Shown here one piece after another: positions 4,388-39,844 of a stretch of 54,160 nt of DNA. Within the stretch, counting starts at the first letter, position 1; each line of letters begins with the position of its first letter. The notes under the pieces were generated by a model, which ran no database searches, had not been told where the DNA came from, and saw only the letters and a list, made by a program, of their open reading frames with translations. This stretch comes from Sebaldella termitidis ATCC 33386. Its GTDB lineage: Bacteria; Fusobacteriota; Fusobacteriia; Fusobacteriales; Leptotrichiaceae. The position numbers and the translations under genes were made by a program. The stretch spans positions 1 through 54,160 of the forward strand of contig NC_013518.1 of the NCBI RefSeq assembly GCF_000024405.1. Reading direction: 5' to 3'.

Positions 4388-5272
4388 TTATATTTTCTTT
4401 TCTGCCAACACCTTTTCAAGTTTTCTAAATGCTTCTTCTGAAGTCTGAAAATTCTGTTTTTCTGGCTTATATTCTTTCATTACATCAAACAGTCTTTTAT
4501 AATTCTTCTGAAAATCATCTATTACTTTATCCTGAATAATCCCTCTTAATTTTTCTATTTCATTTGATAAATCTTTAAAGCTTTCTTCTCTCTCTATAGT
4601 AAATGACTTTAAATTTTTGTAAATTCCGTCACCTAGATCAATTCTTTCAATATCATATTTTAGCCCGCTGTACTCTATTGCTAGTTTCGTTTTGTAATAT
4701 GGCAGATAGTATTCTTCGGAATCCTGATCGTTTATTTCCCTTTCTTCGTGATAAATATTATCGGCTTCTATTAATTTATTAAGAAACTCAATCGCTTCTT
4801 TTCCCTTAAATATAAGATTTTCCTGTAAAAATCTTTCGCTCCATTTAAAATACACTTTTAAAGAATCTATTCTATTATCAGAATTTTCAACTTCACAGTT
4901 TCCTTTTTCTAAATCCTGAATAGTTTCATTTAAACCATCTTTAGTCATTTCAGTGGATTTTATTTTTATATCTGCTATATCGTATACAGATATATATTCA
5001 TTTTGATTGTTTTTAAAAACTCCCATATCAAGACCCATTGACGGAAACTTTTCTAATTCTTCATTTGAAAGATTCCCCTGAATTTCCTTTGTCTGCTCAT
5101 AATCATAATATTTCAAATACATATATTTTCTCCCAAAATCATATGTATTTATCTTGTCATTTCCGAGTAAGTTTTTCATTAATTCTGTACTAACTCCTAT
5201 AGTAATAGCCTGTTTTTCTTTTTCCCCCTCTGTTAACACTCTACCCATTATCTCGTCTTTTCTTATTTCCAT
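4388..5272 (-). CDS. LPD25-domain polyvalent-type protein (294 aa)
   Basis: The central part resembles the Large Polyvalent Protein-associated domain 25: KVYFKWSERF (about 145-155), a helical stretch, then YYKTKLAIEYSGLKYDIERI and DLGDG (about 200-220), matching the family's pattern of Y-x-K-T-x-F strands followed by a DxGDG turn. LPD domains occur in proteins that conjugative elements and phages use on entry, often beside ArdC. The N-terminal 130 residues and the coiled C-terminal part are unassigned. I chose the ATG at 5272 because GGGAGTGAT sits at proper distance. It lies directly downstream of one copy of the 418-bp repeat; ardC follows the other copy in the same arrangement. Role in transfer or anti-defence is inferred. 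Confidence 0.6.
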   Translation of the reverse strand: MEIRKDEIMGRVLTEGEKEKQAITIGVSTELMKNLLGNDKINTYDFGRKYMYLKYYDYEQTKEIQGNLSNEELEKFPSMGLDMGVFKNNQNEYISVYDIADIKIKSTEMTKDGLNETIQDLEKGNCEVENSDNRIDSLKVYFKWSERFLQENLIFKGKEAIEFLNKLIEADNIYHEEREINDQDSEEYYLPYYKTKLAIEYSGLKYDIERIDLGDGIYKNLKSFTIEREESFKDLSNEIEKLRGIIQDKVIDDFQKNYKRLFDVMKEYKPEKQNFQTSEEAFRKLEKVLAEKKI

Positions 5273-5342
5273 TTTCATCACTCCCATATAATATTTTTAA
5301 AAACAAAACTAAATTTCTAAGGACACTCACGAACCACACACA

Positions 5343-5378
5343 TTAGCCCGCATTACCAGTAGAAGCCATTGAGTACAT
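5343..5378 (-). CDS. Conserved micro-ORF ending in MASTGNA-G
   Basis: An 11-codon frame, ATG to TAA, reads MYSMASTGNAG; the other repeat copy reads MHEMASTGNAS at the same position although the DNA around it has diverged. GGAGG lies about 16 bases upstream, which is far for initiation. It could be a leader peptide controlling the LPD25 gene, or the conservation may be of DNA/RNA structure rather than coding. Confidence 0.25.
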   Translation of the reverse strand: MYSMASTGNAG

Positions 5379-5401
5379 GCAATTGTCCAGAGTTCCTCCA
5401 A

Positions 5402-5555
5402 CAATTTTTTTTGTTTTTTTTCATAAACGAATTTTTGCATACAAGATTTTCAAGGTTTTGCGTAGCAAACACGGAGTGCTTGACCTTGAAAACTTGAATC
5501 CCGCTGGGATTTCGCAGTATGCTATAATTTGAGTTGAAAAAAAAGAAAAAAGATT
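5402..5555. other. Structured repeat core; candidate oriT or single-strand promoter, copy 1
   Basis: TTTTCAAGG (5447-5455) pairs with CCTTGAAAA (5484-5492) and encloses two small hairpins, TTTGC-GTA-GCAAA and CAC-GGA-GTG. A fourth hairpin, AATCCC-GCT-GGGATT (5497-5511), follows, then TGCTATAAT, a perfect extended -10 on the plus strand (TATAAT at 5523-5528). Such clusters are typical of transfer origins and of single-stranded promoters in plasmid leading regions. No relaxase gene is present to support this. Copy 2 is at 9579-9732. Confidence 0.4.
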
Positions 5556-5559
5556 AATA

Positions 5560-5588
5560 AAAAAAGAAAAGCTGTTTAGCTTCTCTTA
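5560..5588 (-). terminator. Terminator of the GIY-YIG gene
   Basis: On the minus strand an eight-base stem (AGAAAAGC/GCTTCTCT, one mismatch) is followed by a long T-run. The equivalent in repeat copy 2 (9743-9764) is a perfect stem. Confidence 0.65.
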
Positions 5589-5691
5589 TCATTCCCGGAA
5601 TAATAAAATTGTTTTTTTTCTACTTGCATTGTCCTAATTTGTGACAGTGCAATAAATTTTTGTAAAAAATTTTGTAATAAAAAATTTCATA

Positions 5692-6522
5692 TTAATTTAA
5701 GTTTAGTCCATGTGTTCTACTATTTAAAACACGTTTCCACCAACCTTCTCTCGTTATAATTATTTTATCATCAATTCGGGCATTATAGTTTTCTAAAATA
5801 CTATATTGAAAATTTTCTTTTATATAGTTAAATCCTTTTTCATTTATAATATCTTTTAAAAGTTCATTCCCTCCATGTCCATTTTTAATGTAAGTTGTCC
5901 ATCTTGTTAATAACATTCCCTCGCTTTCAGTTGCTGAACCAATATAATGTTTTCCACTCTCTTTATCAGTAATTAGATAAACTGCTTTTTGATTTTTAAG
6001 AGCATTTATCCAATCTCTTTTGTGCTTTGTTATAATTATTTTTAACTGATTATATGATAAACTAACATTATCATAGCCTGGAAATTCTTCTCCGTCATAT
6101 ATAGTAGGCAATATTTGAGAAACTTCTAAATCTTCTATTATCATTTTAAATTTTCTAACTTGATTTTGATACTTTTTGTGATGTTTTACTATGACTCTTC
6201 CATAATAAGCACTATACTTTTCTAATTCTTCACCTTCATAATTTATACCATTTTTTTTATTCAATTCTTTTGTTACAAGTTTGATTGTAGAAAGAACCCA
6301 TGTATCTTTACCTAACTTAAAAAAACAAATTGCTATTTCACCCTCATTAAAATACCTTTTTTCTTTTCTCCAAAATAACCATCCCGTATTTATAGCTTCA
6401 GGATTTTTTATATATTCTTCCATAGGATTAGTATCACCATTATGTTGATTAAATTTTACTTTTACTTTTTCTATCTGTTCACTCGAAAAGTTTAACAAAT
6501 CTTTTAACAATATTTTTTTCAA
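5692..6522 (-). CDS. GIY-YIG family nuclease (276 aa)
   Basis: The C-terminal half is a GIY-YIG endonuclease domain: AVYLITDKESGKHYIGSA (about 182-200) supplies the two Tyr-containing strands, an Arg follows in LLTRWTTY, and ENFQYSILEN plus a late EGWWKRVLNSR supply the expected Glu and basic region. Residues 1-175 form an unassigned N-terminal domain, probably for DNA or target recognition. The start codon is TTG (6520-6522) preceded by GGGTGGTAT; no better start is available. It sits between a terminator in repeat copy 1 and a palindrome of the par locus. It may be a stand-alone restriction-like or homing-like nuclease; target unknown. Confidence 0.75.
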   Translation of the reverse strand: MKKILLKDLLNFSSEQIEKVKVKFNQHNGDTNPMEEYIKNPEAINTGWLFWRKEKRYFNEGEIAICFFKLGKDTWVLSTIKLVTKELNKKNGINYEGEELEKYSAYYGRVIVKHHKKYQNQVRKFKMIIEDLEVSQILPTIYDGEEFPGYDNVSLSYNQLKIIITKHKRDWINALKNQKAVYLITDKESGKHYIGSATESEGMLLTRWTTYIKNGHGGNELLKDIINEKGFNYIKENFQYSILENYNARIDDKIIITREGWWKRVLNSRTHGLNLN

Positions 6523-6571
6523 ATTATACCACCCATATCATATTTCCTTTCTTATATAAAAATAAGTTTAA

Positions 6572-6590
6572 GTGTCGCAAGTTGCGACAC
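6572..6590. repeat. Palindrome GTGTCGCAAGTTGCGACAC, candidate centromere (parS) site 1
   Basis: Eight-base arms GTGTCGCA/TGCGACAC around AGT. A nearly identical palindrome lies at 8469-8487, so the pair brackets the three-gene par operon, and CCAAAA follows both. Neither copy has a T-run on either strand, so they are not ordinary terminators. A binding site for the 6596-7225 protein or the 63-aa protein is the likeliest reading. Confidence 0.55.
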
Positions 6591-6595
6591 CAAAA

Positions 6596-7225
6596 TTATA
6601 ATTTTTGTTCAAGACTATTTTTTTCTACTTCTAGCTTTGTTATTTTTTCTGTTAACTTTACTATTTCTTTATCAATTTTTTTTAATCTTTTTTCTATTTC
6701 TTCCAGGCTTTCAATTACTATCACATTACCGTCTTCTTTTGTTTCCTTATACTCTTTTAGCTTTTCTTCTACATTTTCAGATTCTAATATTTCAACAATC
6801 TCAATTATTTTCTCGTTCTCATCCTCTTTTTTTAATTCCTGAACTTCTTTTTTTAAATTTTTGACAGTACTATGTGGTAATTCAAATACCTTTGCCTGCT
6901 TTGTTTCCAAAAAAAGATTCCATTTATCTATAAATCTATATGCGGTATCTTTTGATATATTTATATATTCTAAATAAGCTCTAAATCCACCTTTTTTATT
7001 ATTAACTAAAAGTTGTTGAATTTCATATAAACTTTTAGATAATTCTCTAGTATTCCGATCTAATTGTCTCAAATTATTTCTTATAGAGCCTTCTTTTCTG
7101 ATAATCTTCTCAGCAGTTTCTTTTTCTATATTATAATCCTGAAAATTAAAATAAGTCTGCTCTTTTTCTTCTTCTAATGATATTACTTTTTCTTTTTTTT
7201 CTTCTCGCATATCAAATACACTCAT
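6596..7225 (-). CDS. Partition partner protein with HTH and coiled coil (209 aa)
   Basis: The gene following parA in the operon, likely the adaptor or centromere-binding component. Residues about 45-105 hold a region with a helix-turn-helix (FRAYLEYINISKDTAYRFIDKW), resembling DUF3102-type plasmid proteins. Residues about 120-209 are a highly charged coiled coil (repeated EEIEKRLKKID-like heptads), as in KfrA/ParB-type partners. The ATG at 7225 is chosen over one three codons upstream because GAGAGTGGT precedes it at correct distance and it then starts just after the parA stop codon. Likely it binds the flanking palindromes and stimulates ParA; this is inferred from position. Confidence 0.7.
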   Translation of the reverse strand: MSVFDMREEKKEKVISLEEEKEQTYFNFQDYNIEKETAEKIIRKEGSIRNNLRQLDRNTRELSKSLYEIQQLLVNNKKGGFRAYLEYINISKDTAYRFIDKWNLFLETKQAKVFELPHSTVKNLKKEVQELKKEDENEKIIEIVEILESENVEEKLKEYKETKEDGNVIVIESLEEIEKRLKKIDKEIVKLTEKITKLEVEKNSLEQKL

Positions 7226-7227
7226 TT

Positions 7228-8022
7228 TTACCACTCTCTTTCTGCTTCTTCTTCCAAAAATTCATCAGCTAAGTTTCTATAATCTATCGCAGCATTTGAC
7301 GAATTTTTGTAATTTATTATATCTAATCCATTATTCATAGCATTTACTATATTTTGATCATCTCTTATATTTGATTCTGTATAATTATACTGTGATTTAT
7401 TAGAAAAATAATTTTCAAAATCTTCTTTCGCTTCCTTATAGGCTTTTGTTCTTTCTTTTACACATACTAAGAAAATTTTTCTAATCTCTAATTTTTTATT
7501 TTTCTTTTTTGCTATATCGTATGTGTCTAAAAGATCAATAACACCTTTTAAATCGACATTTGAAGCTCTGGAAGGTGTAAAAATATAGTCCGTACAATTT
7601 AATATAGCTGAATTAAAATCATTAACAGTTCCCTCTGTATCAAAAATCACATAATCGTAATCCTCGAATAAATATAATAAATTTTCTATACAACTATATA
7701 TCGCTTGGTTATCCTTTTTTTCTAACACAAAATAACTATTTAAGTTTATAAGTTCTTCAGATGAAATAATAATATCCAATCCATTTTTTTTAGTTATATA
7801 ATTATCAAAATCAGTTACTATGACATCATTATATTGCTTTAGTATGAGTTTAACTAAATTATGTTCATTATTTATTTTTAAATGAACTTGAATTGAACTT
7901 CTAGGGTCACTGTCTATTAATAAAACTTTCTTCCCTCTTTTTACTAAAGCATATGCAAAAGTAATTGCTGAAACTGTCTTAGCAGCTCCCCCTTTTGGAT
8001 TAACAAAACTCAAAATTTTCAT
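7228..8022 (-). CDS. parA: ParA-family partition ATPase (first par locus)
   Basis: A 264-aa Walker-type ATPase. The deviant Walker A is at residues 9-16 (PKGGAAKT), followed by LLIDSDPRSS (about 35-44) and FDTEGTVNDF (about 128-137), the Walker A' and B regions. It lacks a long N-terminal HTH, so it is a short ParA (type Ib-like) and probably does not autoregulate alone. AAGGAGTGAT precedes the ATG. The order is 63-aa DNA-binding-like protein, parA, coiled-coil partner. It differs clearly from the second ParA at 14146-14922, so the plasmid has two partition systems. Confidence 0.92.
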   Translation of the reverse strand: MKILSFVNPKGGAAKTVSAITFAYALVKRGKKVLLIDSDPRSSIQVHLKINNEHNLVKLILKQYNDVIVTDFDNYITKKNGLDIIISSEELINLNSYFVLEKKDNQAIYSCIENLLYLFEDYDYVIFDTEGTVNDFNSAILNCTDYIFTPSRASNVDLKGVIDLLDTYDIAKKKNKKLEIRKIFLVCVKERTKAYKEAKEDFENYFSNKSQYNYTESNIRDDQNIVNAMNNGLDIINYKNSSNAAIDYRNLADEFLEEEAEREW

Positions 8023-8036
8023 AACATCACTCCTTG

Positions 8037-8228
8037 TTATTTGTCTTTTTTTATTTTTATTTCTTTCAATATAGGATTATATATAATTTCAATATTTCTG
8101 TTTTCTCCGCTTATTTCCATGTCTTCGATTATATCTAATGGAAATGACAAAGAATATTGCCCCCCACGTTTTGAGTTAGGCTGCCTATATTGTAATTTTC
8201 TTTTTTTTACTATTATTTTTTTTTCCAT
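8037..8228 (-). CDS. Small DNA-binding-like first gene of par operon (63 aa)
   Basis: A 63-aa basic protein starting MEKKIIVKKRKL with a short strand/helix body (QYSLSFPLDIIEDMEIS) and a C-terminal strand IEIIYNPILKEIKIKK. This pattern recalls AbrB/MazE-like swapped-hairpin DNA-binding proteins, though the match is weak. GGAGG precedes its ATG by four bases and parA follows after 14 bp. As the first gene of a par operon it is a reasonable candidate for the operon repressor. Its 5' leader is about 150 nt long and overlaps a possible antisense RNA. Confidence 0.6.
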   Translation of the reverse strand: MEKKIIVKKRKLQYRQPNSKRGGQYSLSFPLDIIEDMEISGENRNIEIIYNPILKEIKIKKDK

Positions 8229-8261
8229 TTATCCTCCTGTATTAAGTAAGGAAAATAAGAT

Positions 8262-8352
8262 TTGCTTTTATTCTCCTTAAAGCGTATAATAACAATAGCT
8301 GTAGTGTTTCATACACTTCAAGAAAGTATTACTTGTTAATGCTTTCTTTTTT
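8262..8352 (+). ncRNA. Candidate ~55-nt antisense RNA to the par operon leader
   Basis: TTGCTT, a 17-bp spacer and TATAAT (8262-8290) form a plus-strand promoter with no gene after it. A short hairpin (AGTGT-TTCAT-ACACT) and then a strong terminator (AGAAAGTATTA/TAATGCTTTCT plus TTTTTT, 8321-8352) follow. The RNA, about 8297-8352, would be complementary to the leader of the par operon. Confidence 0.45.
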
Positions 8353-8385
8353 TACCACCTCATTTTTCTTCTATATTATAGTAAC

Positions 8386-8414
8386 ATTTTATCATAGTAC
8401 ACGTACAAAGTCAA
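8386..8414 (-). promoter_or_regulatory. Promoter of the par operon
   Basis: On the minus strand TTGACT, a 17-bp spacer and TAAAAT with an upstream TG (extended -10). The spacer contains the symmetric word GTACGTGTAC, a possible operator. Confidence 0.7.
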
Positions 8415-8468
8415 CGATTTCTATTAATTTTATTGTCTTTACTTCAAGAAAAAACTTTTATTTTCTTG

Positions 8469-8487
8469 GTGTCGCAAGCTGCGACAC
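8469..8487. repeat. Palindrome GTGTCGCAAGCTGCGACAC, candidate parS site 2
   Basis: Same arms as 6572-6590; with flanking GG/CC it extends to 21 bp (8468-8488). It lies about 55 bp upstream of the par promoter, on the other side of the operon from site 1. Confidence 0.55.
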
Positions 8488-8557
8488 CAAAACTAAATTT
8501 TGTATTCAGTTTCTGAAAAGGTGCATAAGACTGCTGTCTACACACCCTTTTTATATA

Positions 8558-9448
8558 TTATTTCTTTGCAAATTTAAGTATATAATCGCTTGCTTTTTCA
8601 GCTTCTCTTATAACATTAAATAATATACTCGGTGTTTCTTTTAATAACTCTATATAATGTTTTATATATGCCTTATGATTTTCAAAATGATTCTTATTAT
8701 TACTTATTTCAATTCCTAATTCCAATTGTAAAAACATTGAAGAAATTTCAGCGATTAATTCCTCTTTGGCATACTTTTTGTCAAATTGCCTTTTAGGCAT
8801 TTCTCTGTTTAATCTGCTCTCATGCCCTGTACTATGTGCCATTTCATGAAATATTACAGCATAAAAATCGTCTTCAGTTTTAAAGTATTCCCGGTTTGGC
8901 ATAACAATTTTATCTTCATATCTCGAATAATAAGCATTATGAGTAAAAGCATAATTTATTTTCGCTTCTGAATTATTTATAAGTTTTTCGGCTAACTCAT
9001 TATTTCTAAAAATTTCATTAATTGATGTGTTTTCAGGTATATTTTCAATCTGTTCAGCATTAAATACATTAAAATATGATGCTATAGGACTATTTAATTC
9101 TTCTGTTATTTCTTTTTCTTTTCCGTTTTCATCTTTGACTTTTTTTGTTATATCCCATTTCCAAAATTCCAACCTTATGGATTTAGCACCTTTTTTTATT
9201 TTCCACTTTTTAGATTCAGCCTGCTTGTATGTTAACCAACGATTATCTTTAAAGCCCATTCTTTCAGCTGCCATATATAGCTTTATTAAATTAATTCCTC
9301 TATAAGATACACCATTAGTCGGATTTATCGGCTTGGCAGTTAACCACCCTTTCTGCCAAAAAGTTTTTTCTCCATTTTCTAAATCTTTAATAATTGTATC
9401 AACTAACTCTTTTCTTTCTTCAAAAACTCTTTCTCTAGCTTTTCCCAT
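8558..9448 (-). CDS. ardC: ArdC-type antirestriction protein
   Basis: A 296-aa protein with both ArdC domains. The N-terminal ssDNA-binding domain (residues 1-135) has the family signatures FWQKGW, YRGINLIKL, WLTYKQA, KGAKS and YFNVFNAEQ. The C-terminal zincin-like metallopeptidase domain has HEMAHSTGH at 201-209 and EELIAEISSMF at about 231-241, giving the HExxH pair and the following acidic ligand. ArdC proteins protect incoming plasmid DNA from restriction. I chose the ATG at 9448 because GGGAGTGGT precedes it, exactly as in the LPD25 gene. It lies directly after repeat copy 2, which suggests shared control with the LPD25 gene. Confidence 0.93.
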   Translation of the reverse strand: MGKARERVFEERKELVDTIIKDLENGEKTFWQKGWLTAKPINPTNGVSYRGINLIKLYMAAERMGFKDNRWLTYKQAESKKWKIKKGAKSIRLEFWKWDITKKVKDENGKEKEITEELNSPIASYFNVFNAEQIENIPENTSINEIFRNNELAEKLINNSEAKINYAFTHNAYYSRYEDKIVMPNREYFKTEDDFYAVIFHEMAHSTGHESRLNREMPKRQFDKKYAKEELIAEISSMFLQLELGIEISNNKNHFENHKAYIKHYIELLKETPSILFNVIREAEKASDYILKFAKK

Positions 9449-9863
9449 TTTGACCACTCCCATAAAATAGTTTTTAAAACAAAACTAAATCTATAAGGAC
9501 ACATAAGAGACAATTACACATTAACTCGCATTACCAGTAGAAGCCATTTCATGCATACAATTGTTCAGAGTTCCTACACAATTTTTTTTGTTTTTTTTCA
9601 TAAACGAATTTTTGCATACAAGATTTTCAAGGTTTTGCGTAGCAAACACGGAGTGCTTGACCTTGAAAACTTGAATCCCGCTGGGATTTCGCAGTATGCT
9701 ATAATTTGAGTTGAAAAAAAAGAAAAAAGATTTATAAAAAAAAGAGAAGCGGTTTAGCTTCTCTTATCATTCCCGGAATAATAAAATTGTTTTTATCTGC
9801 TTGCATTGCCCTATTTGTTGCAGTGCAATAAATTTACAGCATAAATTTTGTGATAAAAATTCT
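9446..9863. repeat. ~418-bp direct repeat, copy 2 (upstream of ardC)
   Basis: Homologue of 5270-5686 in the same orientation, with the 154-bp exact core at 9579-9732, micro-ORF at 9521-9556 and a perfect minus-strand terminator at 9743-9764 that would end the RelE-type operon. Recombination between the copies would excise the 4.2-kb block with the GIY-YIG gene, one par locus and ardC. Confidence 0.9.
9521..9556 (-). CDS. Conserved micro-ORF ending in MASTGNA-S
   Basis: Counterpart of 5343-5378, reading MHEMASTGNAS, between the structured core and ardC. AGGAA lies about 15 bases upstream. Possible leader peptide; weakly supported as a translated gene. Confidence 0.25.
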   Translation of the reverse strand: MHEMASTGNAS

Positions 9864-26149: not shown

Positions 26150-27589
26150 TTATTTTTTAACAGTTATATCAATAAAATTAATAATGTCGTTGATTAGTTC
26201 ATCTTCTTTTTCATAATTATGATTAAATTTTTGAAATAATTGTTTTAACTTATTAGAAGAGTTTTTGAAATAACTTTCAAAATCATTATTTATTATATTC
26301 CAAATAGTTTTAGAAGCTCCACCAGTACATCCTATTGGAATTATAATATTATTATTGTCATGGGCTATTTTGAATTCTTCCAGAACTCCAGAAGCTTCAA
26401 TTATTTCAGTATTTTCTCCTATTTTATTTCCAAAAATAAATATTGATATTCCAACTCTTGATATCATATCTTTTCTATATTTTTTCCATAATTCAACCCT
26501 ACTTTTTTCATTTTCTATTCCTTGAGGAAATGGTCTCAATAATAACCTATTGTCATTAATAGTTTTACTTTTTAAATAGATTTCCTCTAATGCACCTTTT
26601 ATGACATAACTTCCGACACCTAATCCAAATCCAGAAACAATATTGTAACCTTTTCTTATTAATTGTTTGGATAAATTTTCAATAAAATTTACAGATTTTT
26701 CTTCTTTAAAATCACCATAATCAACAGCACTGCCAGAAATGAAAACATTGTTTCGATTTATTTTTTTTTCAATATTTCTTAATATATTAGTTATCGTTTT
26801 ATAACTATCTATTTCTAAAACTTGTATATTGTATCTTCTTAAATCGTCAATTAATAATTTCTGTTTTGTTTCTCTATAAATAAAATCTCCCTCATCTTCA
26901 TTTTGTTCTTTGGCTACTTTTTTCATAAGTGCATAATGAGTTTTTTGAGTATCATTCCCATAGTCTACTTTCATTCGACTTAAAATATAATTTAAGTTTG
27001 GATCAGAAAAGCTGAAGCCAATAAATAAAAAAGTTTTTGTTATCAAATCACCATTTAATGCCGTAATGAAAGGAGCATATTTAACATGGTATTCTTCATA
27101 ATCTTCTTTTAAAATAATCGTGTCATTTGAATGATTTCTATCGCCATGCATTTTATAAATAATGGAATCTCTTTTAGGTTCTGTTTGCGATAAATGGGCA
27201 TTAGTATATTTAACATCAGGAATTTTTTTAATTTCTTTTAAAGAATCTTCAATTAAGGAATCATAATTAGTAGTCCAAAATGTAGAGATGGGTAATCTTG
27301 CTAATATTCTATGATTTTCACTAATATCTTTTCCACCATAAGAATTTAATATTAGTTGATTGATTTGTGATCTATTTCCAAGTGTATTTTTATGATACTG
27401 TGCTAAGGAAATTAAATCACTTTCTTTTTCAATATCTAATCCTAAGTCCTCAGCAATATCTTCTAATAACTCTTTCCAATTAATACAGCCAGAATCAACT
27501 GAAAAACCAGCTCCTAAAAAAATAGCGGCATTACTTTCATTGATTTCTTTTACATATTTATCAATAAATTTTAATATTTTTCTATCCAT
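26150..27589 (-). CDS. thsA: Thoeris effector ThsA (SIR2 + SLOG-like)
   Basis: A 479-aa Thoeris effector. The N-terminal SIR2 domain (about 1-270) has FLGAGFS (24-30), TTNYDS with Asn108 and YKMHGD with His148, matching the catalytic Asn/His pair of Bacillus ThsA (112/152). The C-terminal domain (about 285-475) is SLOG/STALD-like (VFISGSAVDYGDF, IVSGFGLGVGSYVI, GVLEEFKIAHDNNNIIIPIG) and senses the cyclic ADP-ribose-type signal made by ThsB. Activation depletes NAD+ and aborts infection. The ATG at 27589 is preceded by GAGG; a TTG five codons earlier is less likely. It lies 20 bp after thsB. Confidence 0.93.
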   Translation of the reverse strand: MDRKILKFIDKYVKEINESNAAIFLGAGFSVDSGCINWKELLEDIAEDLGLDIEKESDLISLAQYHKNTLGNRSQINQLILNSYGGKDISENHRILARLPISTFWTTNYDSLIEDSLKEIKKIPDVKYTNAHLSQTEPKRDSIIYKMHGDRNHSNDTIILKEDYEEYHVKYAPFITALNGDLITKTFLFIGFSFSDPNLNYILSRMKVDYGNDTQKTHYALMKKVAKEQNEDEGDFIYRETKQKLLIDDLRRYNIQVLEIDSYKTITNILRNIEKKINRNNVFISGSAVDYGDFKEEKSVNFIENLSKQLIRKGYNIVSGFGLGVGSYVIKGALEEIYLKSKTINDNRLLLRPFPQGIENEKSRVELWKKYRKDMISRVGISIFIFGNKIGENTEIIEASGVLEEFKIAHDNNNIIIPIGCTGGASKTIWNIINNDFESYFKNSSNKLKQLFQKFNHNYEKEDELINDIINFIDITVKK

Positions 27590-27609
27590 AAATTCCTCAT
27601 TCAACTATT

Positions 27610-28218
27610 TTATTTTTGTTTTTTTAATTTAAAATCGCTTAATCTATTACTTTTTTCATAAGCTTTTTCAATATATTTATTGGGGTCAAGTAAGAAGTCA
27701 TCTTCTTTTATGTAGCTTATATAAGAACCTAAATCAGCTTCATAAGTTTTACATTCTGAGCAATGATACTTAGGTGGAATTGAGTTAAAATGGTTTTCTG
27801 ATATTATTGAATATAATTTTGAGTCATCATATTTTAGGGTACTAGTCCCATGACAATTTTCGCTATTAGTTATAAACCAATCATAGCTTTTATTATATTT
27901 CATCACAACTGCAACAATTCCATTGCTTTTTGATGTTCGATCTTCTCTTTTAATTTCTTTAAGAGAATATTCTAATTCCCAATCTATCCATTCACTTTCT
28001 TTTATTTTAGGAGATAATATAACAATTAATACCGAAGTTCCATATATCATATCCTTTAAAATTTCTTTAATTGTTTCTGTCTTTTTATCTGTTAAGTCAG
28101 GTGAATCACTTGTTTCGCCATTGTAATATTTAGCATCTTCACCCAATGAATCTAATATCTTATCTCTTAAATCACAAGCTTCGGAGTATTTATATGAGAT
28201 AAAAGTTTTTCTTGCCAT
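27610..28218 (-). CDS. thsB: Thoeris sensor ThsB (TIR domain)
   Basis: A 202-aa TIR-domain protein (DUF1863/ThsB type). ARKTFISYKYSEACDLR is the first TIR strand and helix, SVLIVILSPKIKES the fourth-strand region, and WIDWELEYSL carries Glu81, the expected catalytic residue for signal synthesis from NAD+. Residues 100-202 form an unusual tail with CHGTS and a CSEC pair (about 150-153) not typical of short ThsB proteins. ATG at 28218 is chosen because the TIR domain begins there; a GTG three codons upstream is an alternative. It lies upstream of thsA in the usual operon. Confidence 0.9.
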   Translation of the reverse strand: MARKTFISYKYSEACDLRDKILDSLGEDAKYYNGETSDSPDLTDKKTETIKEILKDMIYGTSVLIVILSPKIKESEWIDWELEYSLKEIKREDRTSKSNGIVAVVMKYNKSYDWFITNSENCHGTSTLKYDDSKLYSIISENHFNSIPPKYHCSECKTYEADLGSYISYIKEDDFLLDPNKYIEKAYEKSNRLSDFKLKKQK

Positions 28219-28368
28219 ATTTTCCACTTATCCTTCCTTATATTTTAGTAATAAATCATACAATAAAATTTTAAATTAATAAATAGTTATTTTTGAAAAA
28301 ATACTTTATTGTAAATGTACGCATAGTTTTTTTGACATTCACATGAGTTTTATTATTAAAAAGAACTT

Positions 28369-32173: not shown

Positions 32174-35100
32174 TTATTTGACTTTCCTTTCTAAGCTCCT
32201 CGGCTCAAGATAATAATCCGGATTTCCAGAGCTCATATAATTATTCAATCTCCATATCCTATCTTTTATCTCTTTTTCACTTAATACAGATTTTCCAAAA
32301 ATTTTTCTTCCTGCATTGTATGCTTTCATTTGTCTTTCAGAAAAATAAAGTGTTCCATTACTTGAAAATAACTCATAAAATTCATGATACTCTTTAGAGT
32401 AAATATCTGCTGCTACACGACTTCTTTCCAGTTCAATCTTAGCTACTGTCAATTTATAGAGTTCCTTTCTAGTGTTATCATCCATTATAATATCTTTGGC
32501 ATCATAAATAATTTTTGCTACAGATCCACCTGATGATATTACTTTCGATACTGTTATAGTTTTTCCTGCTATTACAAATGATCCAGGAATAAATGCTGTC
32601 AAACCACCTATTAAAGCTGTCTCAGCTAAATCAGCAGTAAAAATAAGAAGATTATTTTCATTATTCTTTTTATTTGCATCTTCTTCTTTAAATCCGTATA
32701 ATTCACCAAGACATTCTGCTCTTCCACTGCAAACTTTATCTAAAGTTGATTGTGCTGCATCAAAATATTTACTATTTTTAACATCAACAACCTTATCTAA
32801 CAAATTTCTAATATCTCCATTTTCAACAGCCTTATTATAAGCATCTGTTCCTTCTTTAATTTTATCTTTTATACTCTCATCAGCAATTAAATTTGATTCC
32901 GTTCTATCTCCATTAATCTGTCCTACTTTCTTTGCTGAATCTTCGTCTACATCTTTATTAACATAAGTCCCATGAGATCCATCATGTTGCATATTCTTTC
33001 TCATTTCTTCAGCATTACCTGCTCCATGACCATTTACATTAATATAAACTATACCATTTTTATCATCTACTCCCATTATTTGATCAGGATCACCTTCAAA
33101 AAATTCTATTTTATAGTCACCCTTCCCAAATTCTTCTAAGGTTTGACGTAAACTATCTTCAATCAGTTTTTGAGCATCTGCATCCATTACAATTTTCCCA
33201 TCTTCATTTTTATACTTATCTAACTGCTCTTGTAGCTTCTTATCTCTTCCTTCAACAAAAGCCTTTATATCATCTGATCTCTCACCCATATTATTTGATA
33301 TTTGACCTAGTATTGTCTCTCCTTCATTCTTAGTTCCTTCTTGAATCCCCTGCACTATTTCTGGAACTAATGATACTGTTTTTAATATATCCTCCACAAA
33401 CTGATCTCTTACCTTTTGATTCCCTAAATCTGTGTGTAGTACTGTATCGATCTGCTCTACAACTTCATCTTTTGTTATTACCTGAGCCTTATTTATATCT
33501 GTATTTATTCCCAGTTCATCCAAATCAAGTTTTTTTCCTGCTTCTGTTACTTCAGTATTTACAAATGTTGCATTACTATCCTGCTGTTTATCATGACTTC
33601 CATATTGTATTCCTGTTTGTGGTATTAAGGTATCTTTACTTATTCCACTTAACTGGATTCCAGAATTTTCTCCATTATCATGGTCTTTTAAATTTTCTAC
33701 TACCACTTTATTTGCATCAATACTCAATTTTTCATTTGGATTTAAACTTCCTATTATTGATCCTACGTTAGTTAAAGTTTCACCAACCTTTATGCTTCCA
33801 CCATTTTCTGCTATTATTGATGTCTGGTTATTCACCCATTTAGAATCTGCACTATCCTGACTATAACTTCCATTTAATGATGGTATTGCATATCCTTCTT
33901 CCTTATTACTTCCTGGCATTTTCCCTGAAACATCTACACCTACGCCATAGCTACTTCCATTTGATTTATATTCATCCTGCAAAGATATTATATTCAAATC
34001 CTTACCTATATCAAAATTAATTTTATCAGCTGTTACATTAGCTCCAGCAAAAGTTGCATCCTCTTTAGTTGTAAGCTGGAATGTTCCTCCTACATTTATT
34101 GTTGTGTTATCATAATACTTAGAATCTGTATTTGATTTTCCACCAGAGATATTCGCTCCACCTATTACATGATTATTAACTATATCATAACCTGCATTTA
34201 TTCCACTAGAACTTGATTTTGTATTATTACTATATGTATTTTCTCCAGCTAGTGCTACAAAATTCTTAGCATCTACTATAAAATTATCTCCTACTGTCAC
34301 TTTTTGATTTACTAATTTTACATCTCCTTCTGATTGTATTATAAAGTTATTTCCTACGTTAATGACTCCTGCCACTGAATTTGTTCCGTTTTTATTTGAT
34401 TCATAGCTACTTTGATTATAACTCGCACTTACACTTGCTGATACTAAATTACTCAATGCATTTTGTTTAGCATTTTCCATAACTCCCATGTTCATATGAC
34501 CGTTTAAATATTGGCTGCCATATCTTATTCCTTCATATAAATTTCCACCTAATTGGGTTACATTTCTTAAGTCCTGTATCCCATTTCCTATTGTATTTAT
34601 ACTTTGCGAACTATTTCCAAATCCATAGTCTTTTACATTATCTGCTACATCACTTATTGTACTTGCCAGTTGAGCAGGAGTAAATCCTACATTTACATTC
34701 ACTCCTATAGTTGTACTCTTCTGTTTTACTTTTTCCTCATATACTTCTTTGGCATCCAGAAGTTCTACTCCGTTTGTCCCCCTTATTACAAGGTTTTCTC
34801 CAATATCAGCCTGCATTGCTTCTGTTCTTACTCTGTTTCCTGCTTCTAATACTGTATTTCCTTCTGACATTATACTTGATACTGCCACTGTGGTGCTGGT
34901 GTTGTTTACTTCAAGACTACTTCTGCTGTAACTCACTCCTGCTGATATACCACCGCCTCCTGTTGAAAAGCTTGAACTAAATCCACTTCTCTTTTCTGTC
35001 AGAGAATATTCATTATTCATGTCATCTGTTGTTATATTTATATCATTTCCCGCTGTTACTATTATATTTCCACCACTGTTTTGAATATTGTCATTTTTTA

Positions 35101-38100
35101 CTGCTATAACATTTGATGCTTTTATATTTACATCTTTCCCTGCATCCAGTATTACATTATTCCCTATTAATGTACTTCCCACTGCACTTTCACTGTAATC
35201 CGTCTCATATCTGTAATAACTTGAAAATGTTCCTTTCTTCTCTTCCTTTTCCTCATGATACATTGTATTCTTATCATTTGATATATTTATGTTATTTTCT
35301 GCTGTTAACTGTACTGTTCCGTCTGATGCTACCGTACTTCCCTTTATATTTATATCATTTCCGGCATTCATTATAACATTGTCAAGACCTGTTACCTCCG
35401 AACCTAATTTCTGATTTACTTCTGTATATTGATAACCGTTCTTTATTCCTTCTCTTTCTGATTCTCTCAGATTTATTGTATTTATTGATATATCTTTCTT
35501 TGCTTCTATATATGTTGTTCCACCTGATTCTGTTACTGCTCCTCTTGATACATAGTTTTCTCCACTGATATATGTTATATTTCCTGAGCTTATTACTCCT
35601 GCATTCTGAACACTATCTGCTGTATAATTTCTTTCTTCCCCTCTTAATCTGTCATTTACTACTGTTTCTACACCAGTTGTTATATTGCTTATCGTTCCCC
35701 CTGCTGTTAACATTAAGTCTTCTTTCGCTGATATTACTGCCCCTATATTCAATATATCATTTTTTGCATCTATCTGTATATTTGTTCCTGTTATCTCTGC
35801 TGTTAATGCTCCTACACTCTTATTTATCAGATTATCTGTATTTACATATACTGTATTTCCTGATAATCTTCCCTGATTTACAAGACTGCTGCTGTTTATT
35901 GCAAGTGTTTCCTGTGCTGATATTGTTGTTGTAGGACTCTTTATATTCTCCAATGTTGCCTGACTTAAATATACCTGTGGTACCAATACCTTTTCACCAT
36001 TTACTTCCTGTTCCACATACCAGATTATATCACTCTTCAATGCTGCTATCTGATCTCCTGTTAAAGCTACTCCTATTGTTAGCTGTAAATCTCCGCTTGT
36101 TGCCACTGCATTATCAAGCATTTCCTTCATTAACTCTGTATCTGCTTTTCCATTTATGAATCTTGTACCTAATGTCTCTAATAAAAGATTATTCATATAC
36201 TTTGTTTCATAATATGCATCCCCTAATCTTCTTGCCATATTCCAGTCTTTTGATTCGTTGTATCCTATTTTACTTAAGAAATAGTCACTTCCAAAAAATC
36301 TTGATAAATCTATGTACTGTGATCTTGTTTCCATTAAATACTTGGATGTCGGGTCTTTACTTTCTGCAAATAATTTACTCTGTGAACTTGTAAATACTCC
36401 CGGATTAAATGGTATTGTTCCTGTTGTTATTATATCTATTACTGCTGTTCTGTCTACATGTACTGTTACAGGATCATAATATAAATCTACATCTACATCT
36501 TTTGATGTTATTGTACTTGGATCTATTACAATTCCTGTTCCTATTTTACTGTAATCATAACCATTGTTTATTGTCGGTGTTCCTTCTATTATTACATTAT
36601 TTCCTTCTATTACTGATGCACTGTCTGCTATGTTATAGTCTCTTGATGTACTTTCAAGATCTCTTCTTACTCCTATTGCATCACCATATACTGTATTTCC
36701 ACTTCCGTTTGTCCACATTGTCTGCCATAATGATAATCTTTCAGTTCCGTCATATACTTTTATTGTCGCTACATCTGTTACATTCTCTATTTTTTCTACT
36801 TTATTTGTTATTCTTAATGTCCCGCCTGAACTTATTTTTGAATTTCTATTTTCTATTTCTTTTACATCAAGTGTCAGATTTCCTCCTGATAATATTCTTC
36901 CGCCTTCTGTCACAAGTCTGCTTGTATCTACATAACCTTTTAATACCTGTGTTTCATATGTTGCATTTGAAGCTGTAAGGTTTCCTGACATATATCCATA
37001 ATATAAATCATAATCTGTTGAATCTTTTATTTTTGTAAATTCTTTTTCCCTGTTTATTCCACCATTTATATTAGACTTTGCTATCCCTATTTTCCAATCA
37101 TCCAGTCCTGTTATCAAACTACTGTTTCCTGTCTGGGCATATGCATCATCAAGCTCTCTCCATACATCATCATAAATATACTGTCCGTCCCAAGTTATCC
37201 AGTATAATCTATATTGTCCCGATACTTCTCCGCTGTTTAAAAGCTTATTCCCGCTTAACAGTATATTTCCTCTGCTGTCTATTATTCCCTTCGTATTATC
37301 AAGTAAATTAAAGCCTGTTATATTCAGTGTACTCTGTCCTACTATTTCTCCACCAGTATTATCCACATCTCCTGCCACAATATTCAGCTCATTATCACTA
37401 TATACTGACGCATCTTTATTTACAAGCTTTGTTCCTTCTATATCAAGTTTATCAAGAAATATTATCAAATCCTTGTTTGTTATATTATTTCCTGATAACT
37501 TTCCACTTTCTCCTTCCATCATGGAATTATTCAGTATATTTCCTGTTGCCAGTAATTCCACATTACCTGCTGATATTGTTAAGTTATTCGTTATATCTCT
37601 TCCAGATAATCTTAATAACCCTGAGCTTATTGTATTTCCATTGTTTGTTATATCAAATCCTGATATTAACAAGTTATTTATTCCCTGTATTTTACCTTCA
37701 AGAAGTAAATTCCCTGAAGATGTTAATGTTATGTTATTTCCTCTTATTATCCCAGTATTATTATCATAAGAAAATATATTTTGTAAATTTATTGTTGTTG
37801 ATTCTATTGAACTTCTATTTACTATTGATGTATTATTTAAGTTTATACTGCCATTTGATGCCAGCTTTCCTGTATTTGTTAAACTTGTATTATTAGCTGT
37901 TATCACTTCTTCTGCTAATATCTGACCGCTATTTGTTAATACTGGTGTTGTTATCTCTATATTTTTTGAAGCTATTGTTCCTTGATTATTTATATTGCTG
38001 CTTCCTTTTAATTTTGATGTCTCTACTACTGTTATCTTATTTGTATTTATGATATTTGTACTATCCACATCTAAATTTACTGTTACTATTTCTCCAGTGT

Positions 38101-39817
38101 TACTAAAACTAAAGCCTTTTGACACTATTTTATCTGATACTTTTAATACTCCTGTATTTGCTAAGTCTTTTGTATTTACTAATCCTCCTACATTAATTAT
38201 ATTGTAGTTTTCAAGATTAGAAGATATCACAAAATTACCATTTGTATTTATTTGTCCATGGTTCACTGCATTTCCTGCTGTATCTATTCCTTCTCCTGTT
38301 GTTATCTTTCCTGTACTTTTATTTTCAAGGTTTTTTGTAACAAGTTTTTTATTTGTTATTATTTCCCCATTATTATCTAAATCCTCTACATTGACATTAC
38401 CTTCTGCAGTTAACTTCCCTGTATTGACAGTATCTTTAGCTGTTAAATCTCCTGTTGTTTGAACACTTCCTGCATTTGTTAGATTTTTATCTATTGTAAC
38501 TCTGTCTTTTCCATAAAGTGTTCCCGCATTATTTACATTTCCTTTTATAGTTAAATCCTTATCAGATATAACTTTTCCGGTATTTATTACATTACCCTCT
38601 ACAGCAATCCCGTTCTCGCTTTGTAAATCCGATTTATTAGTTAAGTCTTTCCCTACTTTTACAGAATTCTTTCCGTATACTAATGAATCTGATTCTAGAT
38701 TACCTTTTATTTCTAAGCTTCCTTCTGATATTAGCTGTCCTTTATTTTTAGTATCTCCGCCTACAGTCACATTGCTCTTTGAATAAAGATTACTCTCATT
38801 ATTTAAATTTCCACTTATTTCTATTTCCTGTGCTTGTGTTCCTGTTCCTTTTAATATTGTATTATTTGCTTCTATTGTTAATTTTCCCTCAGTATATGTT
38901 GAACCTTCCTGAATAAATTCTTTTGCCTTTACCTCGACTTCCTCTAAGCCTTGGCTTCTCTCAGTCACAACTGTACCGTCAGCATTCAATTTCAAAACTT
39001 TTTCACTTACCAATGATCCTTTTACCGCTAAATCCCCACCTACAGCCTTTAAGTAAATGTTACGACCATAAATACTTCCTACTACTGAGGCTGATACTAA
39101 TACCTCTCCTGGATTATCCCCCTGTTTTACTGTTTCTTTTGTTCCTGTGTTATAATCATACTGTCCACCTATTAATGTTAAATCATTTCCATTCAATTGT
39201 CCATTTACCTGAATACTTCTTGCTAGCAGACTTAAATTTTCTGCTGCATTTCCATTGAAACCAGCACCTATCTCTATCCTACCATCCCTTACCATAACTG
39301 TCATTAAATCATCACTTACATGACCTGTTGTGAAGGTTACATTTCCAAATCTCCCTACCAAACCGCCATTTAAGTATATTCCATTGGGATTACTTAGAAA
39401 CATATCTACTTTTCCCGTACTTGCTGCTTCTATAAAACCGTTTATTACTGACGGATCTTTATGTACTCTTAACAAAATTGCTCTTGCAGGATTTCCTGTG
39501 TAATTTTCATTTGGAGCTATTATTCCTCCAAGTTCACTTCTATATCCAATTCCTTCTTTGGATGAGATATTATTTAATATCAGGTTTTTCTCATCTACAC
39601 TTAGTCTGTCAAAATCATTTACTGACACACCTGAATTTCCCGGATTCGCCAGTTCAATCATTGGGGTTCCATTCGGTGCTGTTATTACTCTTGCTGTTGA
39701 GCCATCTCTTGTTTTTATTAATGAATTTGCAAAACTCATGCTATTCAAAAACATACCCAATAATATACTTAGCGCTATATTCCTTTTTACAATGTTATAT
39801 CTTTTCCCTTTCTTCAT
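32174..39817 (-). CDS. cdiA: CdiA/FHA-type two-partner secretion exoprotein (2547 aa)
   Basis: A filamentous haemagglutinin-type TpsA protein. An extended signal peptide (residues 1-30) is followed by the TPS domain (about 32-260), with AANSLIKTRDGSTARV-like start and the marker NPNGIYLNGG. Residues about 300-800 are NxGxI-type beta-helix repeats (NTGKVISDKDLTIKGN); later repeats include GNDINIKGSTV and SSFSTGGGGISAGVSYS. The C-terminal ~250 residues begin after a KKNNENN motif, a possible VENN-like boundary, with a hydrophobic segment and then an unrecognised domain ending YLEPRSLERK, the likely toxin. The ATG at 39817 follows GGGAGG. Secreted by the transporter at 39845 and paired with the immunity gene at 31847. 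Confidence 0.88.
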   Translation of the reverse strand: MKKGKRYNIVKRNIALSILLGMFLNSMSFANSLIKTRDGSTARVITAPNGTPMIELANPGNSGVSVNDFDRLSVDEKNLILNNISSKEGIGYRSELGGIIAPNENYTGNPARAILLRVHKDPSVINGFIEAASTGKVDMFLSNPNGIYLNGGLVGRFGNVTFTTGHVSDDLMTVMVRDGRIEIGAGFNGNAAENLSLLARSIQVNGQLNGNDLTLIGGQYDYNTGTKETVKQGDNPGEVLVSASVVGSIYGRNIYLKAVGGDLAVKGSLVSEKVLKLNADGTVVTERSQGLEEVEVKAKEFIQEGSTYTEGKLTIEANNTILKGTGTQAQEIEISGNLNNESNLYSKSNVTVGGDTKNKGQLISEGSLEIKGNLESDSLVYGKNSVKVGKDLTNKSDLQSENGIAVEGNVINTGKVISDKDLTIKGNVNNAGTLYGKDRVTIDKNLTNAGSVQTTGDLTAKDTVNTGKLTAEGNVNVEDLDNNGEIITNKKLVTKNLENKSTGKITTGEGIDTAGNAVNHGQINTNGNFVISSNLENYNIINVGGLVNTKDLANTGVLKVSDKIVSKGFSFSNTGEIVTVNLDVDSTNIINTNKITVVETSKLKGSSNINNQGTIASKNIEITTPVLTNSGQILAEEVITANNTSLTNTGKLASNGSINLNNTSIVNRSSIESTTINLQNIFSYDNNTGIIRGNNITLTSSGNLLLEGKIQGINNLLISGFDITNNGNTISSGLLRLSGRDITNNLTISAGNVELLATGNILNNSMMEGESGKLSGNNITNKDLIIFLDKLDIEGTKLVNKDASVYSDNELNIVAGDVDNTGGEIVGQSTLNITGFNLLDNTKGIIDSRGNILLSGNKLLNSGEVSGQYRLYWITWDGQYIYDDVWRELDDAYAQTGNSSLITGLDDWKIGIAKSNINGGINREKEFTKIKDSTDYDLYYGYMSGNLTASNATYETQVLKGYVDTSRLVTEGGRILSGGNLTLDVKEIENRNSKISSGGTLRITNKVEKIENVTDVATIKVYDGTERLSLWQTMWTNGSGNTVYGDAIGVRRDLESTSRDYNIADSASVIEGNNVIIEGTPTINNGYDYSKIGTGIVIDPSTITSKDVDVDLYYDPVTVHVDRTAVIDIITTGTIPFNPGVFTSSQSKLFAESKDPTSKYLMETRSQYIDLSRFFGSDYFLSKIGYNESKDWNMARRLGDAYYETKYMNNLLLETLGTRFINGKADTELMKEMLDNAVATSGDLQLTIGVALTGDQIAALKSDIIWYVEQEVNGEKVLVPQVYLSQATLENIKSPTTTISAQETLAINSSSLVNQGRLSGNTVYVNTDNLINKSVGALTAEITGTNIQIDAKNDILNIGAVISAKEDLMLTAGGTISNITTGVETVVNDRLRGEERNYTADSVQNAGVISSGNITYISGENYVSRGAVTESGGTTYIEAKKDISINTINLRESEREGIKNGYQYTEVNQKLGSEVTGLDNVIMNAGNDINIKGSTVASDGTVQLTAENNINISNDKNTMYHEEKEEKKGTFSSYYRYETDYSESAVGSTLIGNNVILDAGKDVNIKASNVIAVKNDNIQNSGGNIIVTAGNDINITTDDMNNEYSLTEKRSGFSSSFSTGGGGISAGVSYSRSSLEVNNTSTTVAVSSIMSEGNTVLEAGNRVRTEAMQADIGENLVIRGTNGVELLDAKEVYEEKVKQKSTTIGVNVNVGFTPAQLASTISDVADNVKDYGFGNSSQSINTIGNGIQDLRNVTQLGGNLYEGIRYGSQYLNGHMNMGVMENAKQNALSNLVSASVSASYNQSSYESNKNGTNSVAGVINVGNNFIIQSEGDVKLVNQKVTVGDNFIVDAKNFVALAGENTYSNNTKSSSSGINAGYDIVNNHVIGGANISGGKSNTDSKYYDNTTINVGGTFQLTTKEDATFAGANVTADKINFDIGKDLNIISLQDEYKSNGSSYGVGVDVSGKMPGSNKEEGYAIPSLNGSYSQDSADSKWVNNQTSIIAENGGSIKVGETLTNVGSIIGSLNPNEKLSIDANKVVVENLKDHDNGENSGIQLSGISKDTLIPQTGIQYGSHDKQQDSNATFVNTEVTEAGKKLDLDELGINTDINKAQVITKDEVVEQIDTVLHTDLGNQKVRDQFVEDILKTVSLVPEIVQGIQEGTKNEGETILGQISNNMGERSDDIKAFVEGRDKKLQEQLDKYKNEDGKIVMDADAQKLIEDSLRQTLEEFGKGDYKIEFFEGDPDQIMGVDDKNGIVYINVNGHGAGNAEEMRKNMQHDGSHGTYVNKDVDEDSAKKVGQINGDRTESNLIADESIKDKIKEGTDAYNKAVENGDIRNLLDKVVDVKNSKYFDAAQSTLDKVCSGRAECLGELYGFKEEDANKKNNENNLLIFTADLAETALIGGLTAFIPGSFVIAGKTITVSKVISSGGSVAKIIYDAKDIIMDDNTRKELYKLTVAKIELERSRVAADIYSKEYHEFYELFSSNGTLYFSERQMKAYNAGRKIFGKSVLSEKEIKDRIWRLNNYMSSGNPDYYLEPRSLERKVK

Positions 39818-39844
39818 TTTTCCTCCCATTTATCTATTATTTTT

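Follow-up and report, generated by a model that had tools for sequence, protein, structure and literature searches.

A repeated folding element upstream of ardC on the plasmid of Sebaldella termitidis, a candidate single-stranded DNA promoter with relatives on other mobile elements

Two direct repeats, located at 5270-5690 and 9446-9859, mark the plasmid of Sebaldella termitidis ATCC 33386, a replicon of 54,160 bp (PMC3035275) which has been analysed at full length and is called here the window. Each repeat is found upstream of a gene of the minus strand. An earlier note on this DNA had proposed either a transfer origin or a promoter working on single strands. The analysis favours, as the likely explanation, a folding-dependent single-stranded DNA (ssDNA) promoter, which would make the mRNA of ardC and of a gene encoding a 299-aa protein from the single plus strand. 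By analogy with known systems, the element is probably also a primer site.

Compared by BLAST, the two copies are 89.5% identical across 421 aligned positions. A repeat search delimits in them a 165-nt block (5401-5565 and 9578-9742) conserved at 99% identity, and a core of 154 nt (5402-5555 and 9579-9732) is the same in both, as the earlier note had reported. The core occurs at only two sites in the whole genome (4,486,650 bp), both on the plasmid. The 3' part of the repeat, with the terminator and without the folding core, is found once more on the chromosome (C1:3774601-3774685, locus L003). An identical core set in differing flanks, and a terminator half residing once on the chromosome, are features also expected of a mobile or passively duplicated repeat, such as a miniature inverted-repeat transposable element or the end of an insertion sequence, the copies of which are kept alike by gene conversion. 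This origin is extremely unlikely, being disfavoured by the covariation described below, as compensatory changes occur across phyla, the position relative to genes is fixed, and the promoter box is matched to the host.

The gene behind copy 2 (8558-9463, minus strand) encodes a protein of 301 aa made of ArdcN (PF08401, 106 bits) and MPTase-PolyVal (PF18818, 117 bits) domains, and on these matches its identification as ardC is certain. The gene downstream of copy 1 (4388-5287, minus strand) encodes the 299-aa protein, of no recognised family. It had been labelled LPD25, a name left unsupported by the searches, as no LPD25 match was obtained in Pfam up to E = 1, nor any in NCBIfam. The plus strand is the template strand of both genes.

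The plus strand is also the strand that folds. As DNA, it is predicted to form a long imperfect stem capped by a three-way tip, with a z score of about -5.5 over 150 nt and none of 200 shuffles equally stable, so the hairpin cluster described earlier is genuine. The same fold is predicted for the block of copy 2, and both copies are matched by the covariance model described below (70.5 bits for copy 1). Values of about -5 or stronger were obtained for most family members. The outermost part is an imperfect A/T-rich base stem, in which the extended -10 TGCTATAAT (5520-5528; 9697-9705 in copy 2) is paired with residues of the 5' arm at about 5431-5439, with two T-T mismatches. The 5' arm of the base stem (5417-5442), which pairs with the arm bearing the -10, is the proposed template arm. 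Further inward are a side hairpin, ATCCC-GCT-GGGAT (5498-5510), the pairs of which co-vary in relatives, then the stem TTTTCAAGGT/ACCTTGAAAA, and then the tip (5447-5492; 9624-9669, same sequence, in copy 2), supported by covariation and by the covariance model. The tip is closed by the outer stem TCAAGG/CCTTGA, and includes the mini-hairpins TTTGC-GTA-GCAAA (5457-5469) and CAC-GGA-GTG (5470-5478), followed by the unpaired tetranucleotide CTTG (5479-5482). A -35-like hexamer, TTGACC (5480-5485), is separated from the -10 by the side hairpin. It is TTGACA in a Sebaldella relative, with a matching change in the opposite partner arm. The distance from TTGACC to the -10 measures 17 nt if counted along the 5' (opposite) arm, 37 nt in the linear strand. 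The extended -10 TGCTATAAT is invariant in six Fusobacterial copies.

The extended -10 noticed earlier is present on the plus strand, as TG-C-TATAAT; in duplex DNA it points rightward, away from the minus-strand genes. This direction, together with the 37 nt between the hexamers, should keep the promoter silent in the duplex plasmid. Folding places the -10 on the 3' arm; the 5' arm would then be the template and the transcript would run leftward into the gene. From this geometry we infer that the promoter is aimed at the gene only on a single strand, such as arises during entry of a plasmid into a new cell, and that transcription would take place from single strands. Once folded, as prediction and covariation indicate, the strand would present on its 3' arm the TTGACC and the extended -10 in an imperfect, duplex-like stem mismatched at the -10. 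Bound to this stem and templated by the 5' arm, host RNA polymerase would move toward the strand's 5' end and transcribe ardC and the 299-aa gene into mRNA ahead of the second strand. The same RNA may prime second-strand synthesis, as suggested by analogy with the Frpo promoters and by the presence of the element on small RepL plasmids. Around the start of either gene, the minus strand showed no sigma-70-like site.

Could the element act in the RNA as an ordinary structured mRNA leader, or as an attenuator? The minus strand also folds into a stem (z -4.7), and the adjoining mRNA leader, which lies between element and start codon (5288-5400 in copy 1, 9464-9577 in copy 2, both minus strand), is conserved. 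Each element is separated from the gene upstream by an intrinsic terminator of the minus strand (5564-5587 and 9742-9765; 0.1 expected in shuffles), which closes that gene and insulates the element. In addition, the covariance model scores 70.5 bits on the plus strand vs 17.2 bits on the minus strand (the model having been built from the plus strand), GNA loops are found on the plus strand, and no Rfam family was matched at gathering score, nor did a lax scan yield anything close to threshold. Covariation in the leader alignment involves just 2 of 23 pairs, and the leader was rejected as a structured RNA. Action at the RNA level is accordingly rated very improbable. The leader is conserved across six Fusobacterial copies; a leader peptide was considered and rejected, as the small open reading frame is missing from some copies.

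The tip is not confined to Sebaldella. BLAST searches of plasmids retrieved it from Pasteurellaceae plasmids, where both mini-hairpins show compensatory changes. It was retrieved also from small RepL plasmids and one cyanobacterial plasmid. A pattern scan of 84,980 genomes identified true members in Leptotrichiaceae, in Rodentibacter, and in a Bacteroidales, a gammaproteobacterial and a deltaproteobacterial assembly; about 14 of the 20 pattern matches in genome contigs had no fold and were discarded as chance. Among 12 diverse sequences, 12 of 22 pairs have changed on both sides and 92.9% of the cells are paired. None of 500 shuffles reaches these values, and sliding the alignment by one column cuts pairing to about 40%. 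Covariation of the tip is strong. The covariance model which the earlier note had suggested was built, and identified members in 7/98 Fusobacteriota genomes (four of them weak, and excluded from further counts), 3/140 genomes of the Pasteurellaceae family, 13/295 Bacteroidales genomes and 23/199 genomes in the class of the deltaproteobacterial assembly. A second model, built on the Bacteroidales matches, found members in 20/395 Bacteroidota genomes, and in the Bacteroidota alignment compensatory changes affect 13 of 29 pairs. The tip is absent from the E. coli genomes searched. In IMG/VR the strict pattern retrieved none and the Bacteroidota pattern two contigs, and matches in phage records were due to chance. 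The core is not a recent duplication private to one plasmid, the outcome that the earlier note had named as fatal to its proposal: the tip resides in Leptotrichiaceae, Pasteurellaceae plasmids, small RepL plasmids, Bacteroidota and the deltaproteobacterial class. Weak matches in three Fusobacteriaceae loci (L040, L041, L043) were excluded as members, being long hairpins in which the tip is incomplete. These hairpins share CAAGG/CCTTG and one GNA-like loop, and have no second mini-hairpin; they are perhaps reduced relatives.

Genes located beyond the element follow a regular pattern. In 8/8 Fusobacterial copies the next gene in the proposed direction is on the opposite strand, and in the six typical copies its start is at a near-constant distance (151-163 nt) from the element. 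Two loci of a second Sebaldella genome have ardC directly behind the element, one ardC being truncated. A Leptotrichiaceae conjugative contig carries the element before two cassettes, one with a DUF4942/methyltransferase gene and the other with an N6-methylase fragment. A diverged variant on this contig lies among conjugation genes, ahead of a gene that is uncharacterised. In the P. multocida plasmid pFJ6683 the element precedes an operon containing ardC. In Bacteroidota, the first gene on the predicted side is on the expected strand in 26 of 29 cases; these first genes include SSB, DUF932 (as ssb-DUF932), ArdA, AbiEii, PcfK and a Mob relaxase, a set similar to the repertoire of the leading region of plasmid F. 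Members of the deltaproteobacterial class have XRE and N6/N4 DNA methylase genes on the predicted side. In two contigs (G089:C65 and G067:C38) the relaxase gene is on the side expected if the element lies in a leading region, a location that it may have there relative to the origin of transfer (oriT). Recurrence beside ardC or other entry genes, anticipated in the earlier note, is borne out by the second Sebaldella and, elsewhere, by ssb-DUF932, ardA and DNA methyltransferase genes. The element was also considered as a general marker of ardC, and rejected as such, as it accompanies only 3 of 28 Fusobacteriota ardC genes. Some Bacteroidota elements (L104-L118, L125) are located before DUF6943/DUF6266 genes. 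One of these, in an IMG/VR contig of 4,277 bp (L125), resides together with a phage-type holin gene, and the contig is possibly a small undescribed mobile element or ssDNA phage. Chromosomal contigs of the deltaproteobacterial class (L184-L202) carry up to 4 elements per genome, the neighbouring genes being of the XRE-methyltransferase, integrase or relaxase kind.

Judged from sequence, the strongest evidence for promoter function is the match of the box to the host. In Bacteroidota the -7 box is TAnnTTTG, not TATAAT (PMC7366714). Of the 29 Bacteroidota elements, 24 have the motif TAnnTTTG on the folded strand beyond the tip, with two spacings preferred, in a stretch which lay outside the search model. 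The motif is present in 0/29 on the mirror side, in 0/29 on the opposite strand, and in 6.7% of random 75-nt windows of the same loci. The stem extends past the box in 23/23, usually with a small bubble adjoining it. Pasteurellaceae members feature TTGACA-N19-TAAAAT or TAAACT, typical Fusobacterial members TATAAT. The loops also speak for the element. GNA was counted in 90 of 104 predicted triloops on the folded strand, a number partly biased because some seeds came from a pattern requiring CGNAG; GNA triloops were seen also in members found by BLAST, and C-GNA-G loops make exceptionally stable DNA mini-hairpins (PMC4686876).

Several data weigh against a single-strand promoter, or against its action on this plasmid. 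Deltaproteobacterial members have CTTGGCC in place of TTGAC and no clear -10, and which TTGA unit acts as -35 is ambiguous between groups. GNA was counted in 90 of 104 predicted triloops on the folded strand, a number partly biased because some seeds came from a pattern requiring CGNAG; GNA triloops were seen also in members found by BLAST, and C-GNA-G loops make exceptionally stable DNA mini-hairpins (PMC4686876). In Fusobacteriota 25 of 28 ardC genes lack the element, and the three that have it are all from Sebaldella, which indicates that the element belongs to certain replicons, not to ardC. In plasmids of the pVT745 type the two copies face opposite ways, and transcription from the inverted one would be antisense. 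The plasmid proteins scanned include no relaxase, and a relative's relaxase finds nothing similar in this genome, so that entry as a single strand is presumptive for this plasmid.

A transfer origin was the other proposal of the earlier note. Hairpins on mobile elements, at times a few hundred bases from a relaxase gene, would suit an oriT. An oriT is expected to be a single site per element, with a nic site and a relaxase gene adjoining; the family has two to four copies per replicon, this plasmid having two copies and no relaxase among the proteins scanned, and one member is on pHha1733, a 1.7-kb plasmid annotated with repL alone. A transfer origin is accordingly most improbable, while covariation, strand logic, recurrence beside ardC and entry genes, and host-matched boxes speak for the promoter.

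Small replicons raise a further alternative, a site working mainly in single-strand initiation (ssi, or single-strand origin, sso), at which RNA polymerase or primase would be recruited for a second-strand primer, gene expression being secondary or absent. The element is found on RepL plasmids of 1.7 and 2.4 kb and on the 4.3-kb viral contig, and the part conserved universally is the tip, not the -10. The inverted copy in pVT745-type plasmids, which places one copy on each strand, fits better with a primer site than with a gene promoter. A site of this kind leaves unexplained why a gene on the proposed side lies at a near-constant distance, why the genes found downstream are those they are (ardC, ardA, methyltransferase, ssb), and why several copies face the same way on one replicon. 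It is considered an unlikely main function. The tip is also found on Pasteurellaceae plasmids of 1.3-2.4 kb (L010, L033 and L034, the tip in L034 being cut off by the end of the record), where it is a candidate single-strand origin.

In rolling-circle single-strand origins, as in the complementary-strand origin of M13, a folded strand is read by host RNA polymerase to make RNA, and these are described as primer sites. The same reading of a folded single strand is proposed here. Unlike those origins, the element precedes genes and keeps a fixed orientation toward them, the spacing being near-fixed as well in Fusobacteriota. To our knowledge, demonstrated ssDNA promoters are limited to a few enterobacterial plasmids, and the larger surveys are predictions seeded from those sequences. 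The Frpo/ssi elements of plasmid F and ColIb-P9 are similar in three respects (PMC9849209, PMC11541004): the single strand folds into a stem which rebuilds -10 and -35 boxes, a feature found here by prediction and covariation; they precede anti-restriction, ssb and DUF932 genes; and they occur as near-identical pairs about 4-5 kb apart. Frpo1 and Frpo2 of plasmid F are 92% alike and lie some 5 kb from each other, and the paired use of one element for two genes, correctly pointed out in the earlier note, is paralleled by them (PMC9849209). The gene is templated by the folded strand, as in those systems, in 8/8 Fusobacterial copies and 26/29 Bacteroidota elements. By sequence and fold, the element is not a Frpo homologue. 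The tip model found nothing significant in the F leading region (50-68 kb), the best hit (E 0.048) lying away from Frpo1/2, and a different fold is predicted for the F region. Unlike Frpo, the element has a three-way GNA-loop tip, and is spread over Fusobacteriota, Pasteurellaceae, Bacteroidota and the deltaproteobacterial class. The Frpo' and Frpo* candidates of Samuel et al. 2024, compared here by description only, are likewise predicted ssDNA promoters before leading-region anti-defence genes; they were sought by BLAST from known Frpo/ssi and by TTGACA/TATAAT consensus, and members with TAnnTTTG would escape such searches (PMC11541004). In the open-access literature no description of the element was found outside Frpo-derived sequences.

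A broader proposal, that these elements belong to a single structural family of ssDNA promoters with no relation to Frpo, seems on balance plausible. The family would reside on mobile elements of at least four phylum-level groups, keeping the GNA-loop tip, swapping the box to that of the local host (TATAAT or TAnnTTTG), and expressing anti-restriction and ssb genes from incoming strands. If true, a separate covarying family reaching gut Bacteroidota would imply that mobile elements quite generally use the incoming strand for expression, would account for the synthesis of anti-restriction proteins ahead of restriction, and would provide a marker for leading regions and for new anti-defence genes. 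The question is directly testable with short single-stranded templates.

A ParA-type ATPase (7228-8022, minus strand) is encoded between the copies, and a Leptotrichiaceae relative likewise has a ParA-like gene between two copies. The gene upstream of copy 1 (5692-6522, minus strand) matches UzuA in PADLOC (164 bits), its C-terminal part being similar to group I intron endonucleases. The Shedu defence protein SduA (PF14082; PADLOC 245 bits) is encoded at 1381-2127 on the plus strand, and a complete Thoeris pair at 26150-28227 on the minus strand, made of ThsA (PADLOC 649 bits) and of ThsB with a TIR-like domain (PF08937). Two minus-strand regions (32174-41623 and 46054-52986) encode a two-partner secretion transporter of the ShlB/FhaC type and two very large proteins, of 2551 and 2310 aa.

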